A program made the position numbers and the translations under genes. Source: a virus. From it: a stretch of 40,769 bases of DNA. Under the pieces are notes generated by a model. It did no database searches and had not been told where the DNA came from. It saw only the letters and a program-made list of their open reading frames with translations. The stretch is from IMG/VR virus record IMGVR_UViG_3300031785_001307, positions 1-40,769 of that record, one strand, 5' to 3'. Shown piece after piece: positions 12,837 to 40,769 of this stretch; positions within the stretch are counted from its first letter, which is position 1, and each line of letters begins with the position of its first letter.

Positions 12837-13358
12837 TTATCTCAGGAACTCTCTCCAATCCAGGCCATACTGGATTGAATTTACTTTATGTACACCTATT
12901 AAGAATAATACATAACTTGCTACACTTGATCCACGTCCAACGCCCCAGACAATATTATTATCTCGCATAAACTCTACCAAGTATACCATATATTGTAATA
13001 ACGGATACATATCACGTTTATGGAATTCATGTAGTTCTTCGTATGCACGTGATACTTCTTGTTCAGTTTTACATAGGTTTATAACAAAACTCTCAATATT
13101 AAGTTCCTTGTACTTTTCTGGCATAAACCATTCACTTTGACATACACCGTCAAATGTTTTTTGATCTACATCTAATGGTATATATTTTTTAAGTGGATCA
13201 AGACCTTTATCAGTCATAGCTGTGTTAAATTTATCTACGTCATCACTATGATCGCATAATACAACATGACATTTGTCTATATGACCTGAGTAAATCATAT
13301 CGACCAAATCTTTGTTGGTGAATCTTGGTATACCGAGTTCGTCTGTTTTCATTAGCAT
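12837..13358 (-). CDS. DnaE-like fragment (DNA polymerase III alpha)
   Basis: 173 residues. The C-terminal WGVGRGSSVASYVLFLIGVHKVNSIQYGLDWREFLR (from residue 138) matches the start of the palm region of bacterial DnaE (the GPGRGSGAGSLV...L..ERFL block), and the preceding helices (about 100-130) fit the region just before it. The PHP domain and the catalytic Asp motifs that follow in DnaE are absent; the ORF stops at FLR and only 28 bp separate it from the next gene, so no frameshifted remainder is present. It cannot be an active polymerase; it may bind clamp or DNA, or imitate part of the host enzyme. Its sigma70-like promoter overlaps the gene upstream. Confidence 0.65.
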   Translation of the reverse strand: MLMKTDELGIPRFTNKDLVDMIYSGHIDKCHVVLCDHSDDVDKFNTAMTDKGLDPLKKYIPLDVDQKTFDGVCQSEWFMPEKYKELNIESFVINLCKTEQEVSRAYEELHEFHKRDMYPLLQYMVYLVEFMRDNNIVWGVGRGSSVASYVLFLIGVHKVNSIQYGLDWREFLR

Positions 13359-39703: not shown

Positions 39704-39780
39704 TGGTGGGCCTGATGCGATTCGAACACACGACCTTTGGTTCCGCAAACCAATGCTCTATCCAGCTGAGCTACAGGCCC
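39704..39780 (-). tRNA. tRNA-Arg (anticodon GCG)
   Basis: 77-nt cloverleaf with encoded CCA. Acceptor GGGCCTG/CAGGCCC, D-arm GCTC..GAGC with GG and A20, anticodon stem TTGGT/ACCAA and loop TTGCGGA (anticodon GCG, reading CGC/CGU), T-arm GTGTG/CGCAT with TTCGAAT; discriminator A. GCG is unusual, since bacterial Arg tRNAs for CGN normally have ACG. Its promoter places the start of transcription at about its first base. Confidence 0.93.
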
Positions 39781-39816: not shown

Positions 39817-40197
39817 CTAGTTTGGCATAGTAAATAATGCTTTAACTCCTGATCTATCTTCAGGTTGTTTTCTAGCAAATACTACCCACTTTGGATTGTA
39901 ATCAAAAGACATGGTACGATAATGCTCATCGCAGTATTCTTTAAAACTTGCACCAGTGGTATACACATCATCAACAATCATAGGAGGACCTACAGTTGCA
40001 TATTCCGTAAGTGCCATTGCTAATGGTAGTCCACCTCTTGGTATTCCTTCAACTGATCCGAATGATCTAGTTTCATAATCCATAATCATTCGTGCAAGTC
40101 CTTTCCAATCATCCGGGGTTAAAGCATCACATTCTATTTTCCAATTGAGGGGTAATCCTGCGTGGCTAATAAAAGATTTTTTTTGAAACAAATTCAT
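39817..40197 (-). CDS. Phosphoribosyltransferase-like protein
   Basis: 126 residues. The PRPP-binding motif IVDDVYTTGAS (74-84) is the hallmark of type I phosphoribosyltransferases; GIPRGGLPLAMAL (51-63) is the upstream loop. It is short: ordinary PyrE/PRTases have about 200 residues, and the N-terminal hood is reduced to about 45 residues. It may act on a pyrimidine or purine base in salvage or in nucleotide modification. AAGGA ribosome site; begins 16 bp after the type II tRNA. Its last codons lie next to the tRNA-Arg promoter. Confidence 0.78.
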   Translation of the reverse strand: MNLFQKKSFISHAGLPLNWKIECDALTPDDWKGLARMIMDYETRSFGSVEGIPRGGLPLAMALTEYATVGPPMIVDDVYTTGASFKEYCDEHYRTMSFDYNPKWVVFARKQPEDRSGVKALFTMPN

Positions 40198-40213: not shown

Positions 40214-40315
40214 TGGCTCTGGGGGGAGGACTCGAACCTCCACGCTAAATATATTGCAGTACATTCAACCACAGGAGAAACAATCCTGCGTGTCTACCAA
40301 TTTCACCACCCCAGA
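40214..40315 (-). tRNA. Type II tRNA with anticodon GUU (Asn-like)
   Basis: 102 nt with encoded CCA. Acceptor TCTGGGG/CCCCAGA (7 bp), discriminator G73, D-arm GTG..CAC with AAATTGGTAGA as in tRNA-Leu, anticodon stem CAGGA/TCCTG and loop TTGTTTC (GUU), a variable region of 30 nt that folds into a stem of about 10 bp (GTTGAATGTA with TATATTTAGC, including G-U pairs), and T-arm GGAGG/CCTCC with TTCGAGT. GUU with G73 is the AsnRS identity set, yet the body is Leu-like with a very long arm. The 5' end is 7 bp after the synthetase-like gene stop. Decoding of AAC/AAU is inferred; Ser identity by the long arm and G73 cannot be excluded. Confidence 0.8.
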
Positions 40316-40321
40316 TCATTT

Positions 40322-40769
40322 TTATTTGTCTAGTGCGGCAATCATTCTAGTCATGCCAATGCCTCCACCCACTCTTGGGAAGAAGTCAAATTCTAAGAAC
40401 TTTTCAAGTTCTGCTTCAACTCTATCTTGTCCAAATAATTCAAACAACAATTTTGAATATGCACCTTCAGTAATAGTATGAAAAGTATCTCTCATCATAT
40501 CTACATCTGTAGATCTTTCTGCCGACCCTATTGTTTCCATACCACCTAATATTACATCAATTTTTTTACTATGAACTCCGCTGTCATATCTACTCATATT
40601 CCAAAACGGTGAAGTAAATTCAGGGAAGTCTGTAATCATTGCAGTTTCAAAATCTTCAAACATTTTATTTTCATGCTCTGCTTCTAGTTCTGCTTCAGCA
40701 CCTAATTCAAAATGTCTTTGCCATGCTTCGTATGTTCTTTCTTCTGGCTTTTTAAATCCTAAGTAATCC
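40322..40769 (-). CDS. AsnRS/AsnA-like class II synthetase, N-terminus outside
   Basis: The frame is open to the right edge, so only the C-terminal 148 residues are here. ITDFPEFTSPFWNMSRYDSG resembles AspRS/AsnRS motif 2-to-3 regions (ITDFP..FYM), GGMETIGSAERSTDVDMMRDTF resembles the E-x-x-x-G-S-x-R stretch of AsnRS, and FFPRVGGGIGMTRMIAALDK is motif 3 (GGGIGxxR; Arg). It belongs to the Asp/Asn/Lys-type class II group; whether it charges tRNA-Asn or, like AsnA-type relatives, makes asparagine from aspartate cannot be settled here. It is followed immediately by the GUU tRNA, a strong hint of a partnership. The first in-frame ATG in the window at 40663 is internal. Confidence 0.72.
   Translation of the reverse strand, partial: DYLGFKKPEERTYEAWQRHFELGAEAELEAEHENKMFEDFETAMITDFPEFTSPFWNMSRYDSGVHSKKIDVILGGMETIGSAERSTDVDMMRDTFHTITEGAYSKLLFELFGQDRVEAELEKFLEFDFFPRVGGGIGMTRMIAALDK

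Follow-up and report, generated by a model that had tools for sequence, protein, structure and literature searches.

A type II tRNA with a GUU anticodon and an AsnRS-like enzyme paired in marine viruses, with a possible link to pyrimidine synthesis

The window analysed here, a 40.8-kb virus fragment from IMG/VR taken at its whole length, ends on the right with three minus-strand genes, which encode, in this order along their strand, a class II synthetase-like protein, a tRNA and a PyrE-like phosphoribosyltransferase (Table 1). The first two are separated by 6 nt, and not by the 7 bp given in an earlier sequence-only reading of this locus. Reciprocal linkage of these two genes, the AsnRS-like fold of the enzyme and its Q[ST]xQxxLE signature strongly support a dedicated enzyme-tRNA pair. 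For its function I tentatively favour, at somewhat less than even confidence, a viral module in which a pyrimidine-linked, adenylating AsnRS-type enzyme would work with its own type II tRNA, the presumed aminoacyl partner, mainly off the ribosome.

Table 1. Coordinates of the features discussed, all at the right end of the window.
Feature	Position	Strand	Basis or remark
OB-less class IIb AsnRS-like enzyme, C-terminal 148 aa	40322..40768	(-)	Member of PHROG 29758; N-terminal part lies beyond the contig end
Type II tRNA with encoded CCA and tRNA-Asn-type identity set U1-A72, G73, GUU	40214..40315	(-)	Rfam, fold, relatives, covariation
Anticodon GUU	40279..40281	(-)	Sequence; 100/100 relatives
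U37, next to the anticodon on its 3' side; a position usually occupied by a purine	40278	(-)	U in 88/100 relatives
Variable region, 30 nt, with 10-bp stem	40242..40271	(-)	Fold; helix kept in relatives
Small PyrE-like phosphoribosyltransferase, next gene after the tRNA	39817..40197	(-)	Identity to the L145 phosphoribosyltransferase

The PyrE-like gene of the window is 41% identical to a phosphoribosyltransferase that adjoins the enzyme in a cellular locus (L145) and that itself matches Pribosyltran at 1.7e-5, and a gene ∼90% identical to it is found at the same place in two other loci (L013 and L014). An ordinary tRNA-Arg (GCG; 39704–39780) lies on the same strand as the type II tRNA, about 430 nt further downstream, and elsewhere in the window, at 12837–13358 (-), is a fragment of 173 amino acids resembling the DNA polymerase III alpha subunit.

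Intact relatives of the enzyme are ∼265–300 amino acids long (271–296 for the close relatives of the window enzyme). The ORF of the window matches Pfam PF00152 (tRNA-synt_2, D/K/N) at 4.3e-9, the family matches PHROG 29758, which has no assigned function, and the best match in a profile search is the AsnRS 2xgt (4.6e-13). When an AlphaFold (AF2) model of the enzyme (pLDDT 93.8) was searched with Foldseek, the top matches were mostly AsnRS, with AspRS close behind, and the catalytic core alone was aligned; together with the length of the intact proteins, this indicates that the N-terminal OB anticodon-binding domain is absent. The class IIb core possesses its adenylation motifs, and the arginines of motifs 2 and 3 are invariant in the family. 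Within the Q[ST]xQxxLE signature, the loop QTGQMWLE resembles the QSSQLYLE of AsnRS and differs from the QSPQLYKQ of AspRS, the lysine of which contacts the Asp side chain. The enzyme nevertheless scores far under the cut-off of every curated model for AsnRS, AspRS and asparagine synthetase: asnS gives no match, the best NCBIfam match stands at 28 bits where 353 are required, and the AS-AR/AsnA model gives 23 bits against 389.

The Rfam tRNA model matches positions 40217–40315 (-) at 47.5 bits, against a gathering score of 29; ARAGORN at default settings did not call this tRNA. It runs from T1 at 40315 to G73 at 40217 and CCA at 40216–40214, is 102 nt long with the CCA, and folds into an acceptor stem of 7 bp, a T stem of 5 bp, an anticodon stem and a variable stem of 10 bp, with a folding energy of −36.7 kcal/mol (z −2.35). 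The type II tRNA with GUU, G73 and a variable stem of roughly 10 bp that had been recognised by eye is therefore real, and its D arm is identical to that of some tRNA-Leu, in keeping with the Leu-type body ascribed to it.

I compared 100 distinct viral tRNAs of this kind. The U1-A72 pair, G73 and GUU are invariant (100/100), and the variable region is 13–38 nt long and bears a stem, unlike the short loop of type I tRNAs. All 45 tRNAs among the matches listed in a broader sample, gathered with a conserved enzyme motif, likewise have GUU. In the tRNA alignment 99.7% of the cells for the 23 stem pairs keep the pairing, and 19 of these pairs show compensatory changes. Because these distinct relatives share the same features and their stems covary, the tRNA is not a sequencing error, the artefact that the sequence-only reading had itself raised; the conservation of the stems with compensatory changes also rules out a chance tRNA-like fold. 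The anticodon loop is less regular. Position 37 is U in 88 tRNAs, A in 7 and C in 5, and never G, while position 33 is U in 91, C in 8 and G in 1, so that the U33 and A37 (the t6A site) expected of tRNA-Asn are present in 91/100 and 7/100, respectively. By comparison, among the remaining tRNAs of these viral loci 97/98 have U33 and 96/98 a purine at position 37. Judged by its sequence, the tRNA thus bears the identity set of a tRNA-Asn on a body like that of tRNA-Leu, with an anticodon loop unusual for an elongator.

That Asn codons (AAY) might be read as another residue, Ser or Leu, had been raised as an alternative in the sequence-only reading, and the type II body with its Leu-like D arm is in keeping with it. 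It is, however, very improbable: the enzyme has an AsnRS-type active site, and Asn residues conserved without exception across the family, in cells as in viruses, are encoded by AAY in the phage gene as well (for instance N181 of FWNM, which is aat in the window), so that codon reassignment is unsupported.

The enzyme is encoded on at least several hundred IMG/VR contigs, 216 of them confirmed, mostly from marine viruses. Where at least 130 nt of downstream DNA was available (153 viral loci), it is followed by a type II GUU tRNA in 145, within 30 nt in 139, at a median distance of 8 nt; in the broader sample the tRNA is present in 45 of 70 loci among the matches listed. The reverse test, starting from two tRNA patterns, found 110 viral tRNAs, and all 98 with upstream DNA carry the enzyme there. 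On the enzyme tree, the tRNA-bearing enzymes fall in two separate lineages. Some viruses have the enzyme without the type II tRNA, and in two of these (L051 and L052) a DHOD gene lies directly 3' of it, showing that the tRNA is not always needed. Two enzyme-bearing jumbo phages have an ordinary type I tRNA-Asn in its place. Just past the enzyme stop of a further locus (L092), the sequence TCCGGGGTCCCCCGGAGCCA resembles the acceptor-stem halves and G73-CCA of the type II tRNA, with the body missing, perhaps through a deletion or an assembly effect.

The cyanophages P-SSM2 and P-SSM7 also carry the pair. Their GenBank annotation (T4-GC194 'tRNA ligase' and tRNA-Asn, the latter being how the paired tRNA is labelled in the P-SSM7 record) describes the same two genes and was deposited years ago, and the pair is listed in Sullivan 2010 (PMC3037559), a comparison which gives a single tRNA for the 252-kb P-SSM2 genome. 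In neither source did I find a comment on the pairing itself, on U37 and the type II form of the tRNA, or on pyrimidines, and a literature search for the enzyme-tRNA pairing or a pyrimidine link returned nothing. In the P-SSM2 record (NC_006883.2) the tRNA-Asn is placed at 164094–164179, whereas it actually lies at 162083–162168, directly after the enzyme; the annotation is offset.

A genome-contig scan yielded 125 relatives of the enzyme, mainly in Bacteroidota, Patescibacteria and Dependentiae, with some in Proteobacteria and DPANN archaea, and the bacterial and archaeal relatives are ∼55–60% identical. Among these relatives, L087–L089, L097 and L150 are virus-like contigs with a type II tRNA. 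With a covariance model, no type II GUU tRNA was recognised in 12 enzyme-bearing cellular genomes, the listed top matches that were checked being all Leu. AsnRS or GatB is present in 11 of 12 tested genomes, which speaks against the enzyme being an AsnRS required for cell translation, and asnB is over its cut-off in 9 of 12, which speaks against asparagine supply as the cellular role. For one genome only (L138, a Bandiella numerosa draft), neither an AsnRS over cut-off nor GatB was found; provided that this draft is complete, Asn-tRNA formation there may have the OB-less enzyme as its sole candidate. A plasmid search gave no match to the enzyme. In an SR1 MAG (L139) the enzyme frame, translated with table 11, is interrupted by TGA, which fits a code in which TGA stands for Gly.

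The neighbours of the cellular enzyme point to pyrimidines. Unsupervised clustering of the genes around 80 cellular loci showed that, after the enzyme, the commonest are PyrE/F (21 loci) and DHOD (19); this is the cleaner test, since counts made with iterative profiles for PyrE and for OMPDC, which converged on one another's families, are supportive only. In Bandiella and relatives the order is enzyme, pyrF, a pyrE-like phosphoribosyltransferase, a pyrD-like gene, PRPP synthase and transketolase; Pasteurella atlantica has pyrD (on the opposite strand), enzyme, pyrF and a phosphoribosyltransferase; and a Parcubacterium has pyrD, two genes reading as pyrE and pyrF, an ASL-like gene and the enzyme. 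The enzyme family thus clusters with pyr genes as a replacement for ATCase or DHOase would. An argininosuccinate-lyase-like (ASL-like) gene adjoins the enzyme in L121, L123, L163 and L164, which belong to Patescibacteria and Cytophagales. L123 also has a PRK06886 amidohydrolase and L164 a relative of it; these genes possibly contribute further steps to an alternative early route to pyrimidines. Among 16 enzyme-bearing genomes, many of them reduced or incomplete draft MAGs in which pathway gaps are common, CarB is over its curated cut-off in 3 and PyrB in 1, against 14/14 for each in controls that were standard genomes and not relatives lacking the enzyme; PyrC-like matches occur in 6 of the 16.

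Viral operons show the same association in places: DHOD-enzyme-tRNA-phosphoribosyltransferase (L013), enzyme-tRNA-PyrF-DHOD (L023), PyrE-enzyme-tRNA (L185, L190 and L207) and enzyme-tRNA-PRPP synthase (L041). Among the cyanophage records of a phage collection, with gp23 as the denominator, the enzyme was found only in P-SSM2, P-SSM5 and P-SSM7, which are also the only ones matching a phage PyrE query. Local pyrimidine linkage is a minority feature in viruses, seen in 7 of 80 among the matches listed in the broader sample; starting from the partner genes, the enzyme lies within ∼7 kb in 5/14 viral phosphoribosyltransferase loci and 2/9 DHOD loci.

Since the bacterial relatives of the enzyme sit among pyrimidine genes, the tRNA may serve metabolism rather than code reading. 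The family would then catalyse an ATP-dependent step in which asparagine or aspartate is turned into dihydroorotate or the compound directly before it, and would replace CarAB and PyrB and sometimes PyrC. Asparagine, CO2 and ATP offer one chemically reasonable route, as asparagine holds all the atoms of the dihydroorotate ring except C2. The phage tRNA would be the aminoacyl partner of the enzyme, mainly off the ribosome, and the supply of pyrimidines for viral DNA would thereby be tied to a dedicated tRNA. Against this combined reading stand the lack of a type II tRNA partner in the cellular relatives, the viruses that keep the enzyme alone, the small share of viral loci with pyrimidine genes nearby, and the PyrC-like matches and the reduced or incomplete state of many of the cellular genomes. 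A fuller version, namely that dihydroorotate or its precursor is made from asparagine in a tRNA-dependent manner that bypasses carbamoyl phosphate, a route begun in cells, where ordinary tRNA-Asn perhaps served, and continued in marine phages with a non-ribosomal type II tRNA, is rather unlikely.

The cellular enzymes, and some viral ones, that occur without the tRNA could also mean that the enzyme works in pyrimidine synthesis with no tRNA at all; the tRNA would then supplement translation independently, regulate the enzyme or serve in processing the operon. This is improbable, given that in 98 testable loci the tRNA never occurs without the enzyme, and that it has been kept in two separate lineages.

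For the invariant GUU the simplest explanation is codon reading, or else a synthetase that reads the anticodon, and because it never varies, the main rival is a true orthogonal translation pair, in which an OB-less minimal AsnRS would recognise the acceptor stem and variable arm, in a SerRS-like manner, and the Asn-tRNA would decode AAY. The AsnRS fold and signature, the equally invariant U1-A72 and G73, the obligate linkage of tRNA and enzyme, and the type I tRNA-Asn of the two jumbo phages all fit such a pair. I nevertheless consider it doubtful: U37 in ∼88% of the tRNAs and the loss of U33 in ∼9% are very unusual in elongator tRNAs and so argue against an ordinary codon reader, the neighbourhood of the enzyme family is one of pyrimidine genes, and most enzyme-bearing cells tested already have AsnRS or GatB. 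The orthogonal Asn pair proposed in the sequence-only reading therefore survives as a dedicated pair, on its reciprocal linkage and AsnRS-like fold, but one that is probably pyrimidine-linked, with a non-ribosomal tRNA partner. That the loop varies around a fixed GUU would also suit defence evasion, in which a tRNA-Asn substitute, charged by its own synthetase, would resist host anticodon nucleases by means of its long arm and changed loop; evasion of defences that target tRNAs has been proposed for phage tRNAs whose anticodon loops are altered (PMC10264068). Such a role would make the linked synthetase and type II body unnecessary, and leaves the pyrimidine linkage and the tRNA-less cellular family unexplained; I regard it as about as improbable as a tRNA-independent enzyme.

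The module resembles several known systems in part. It shares with AsnRS (class IIb) the catalytic-core fold, the signature, the motif 2 and 3 arginines and a linked tRNA with GUU, U1-A72 and G73, and differs in its missing OB domain, its scores far below the curated models, its type II, U37-bearing partner and its pyrimidine neighbours. With AS-AR/AsnA it has in common a class IIb core and no anticodon domain (the AS-AR 3p8t is a weak profile match, at 8.6e-5); set against this are its score under the curated model, its linked tRNA and the fact that most enzyme-bearing genomes already have asnB. EpmA/PoxA, GluQ-RS and HisZ are paralogues in which a synthetase core is likewise reused without an anticodon domain; none is known to have a dedicated tRNA gene or to lie in pyrimidine clusters. 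Glu-tRNA-dependent tetrapyrrole synthesis is a precedent for an aminoacyl-tRNA feeding a non-protein pathway, albeit with another amino acid, other enzymes, another pathway and an ordinary cellular tRNA-Glu.

If true, the pyrimidine-linked reading would add nucleotide metabolism to the uses of tRNA, and would supply the missing early pyrimidine enzyme of bacteria and archaea that keep pyrD, pyrE and pyrF without CarB and PyrB. On the milder reading, the module would be a natural orthogonal pair, widespread in marine viruses, in which an AsnRS core of ∼270 amino acids that lacks an anticodon domain recognises a type II tRNA, and would be directly useful for genetic-code engineering.
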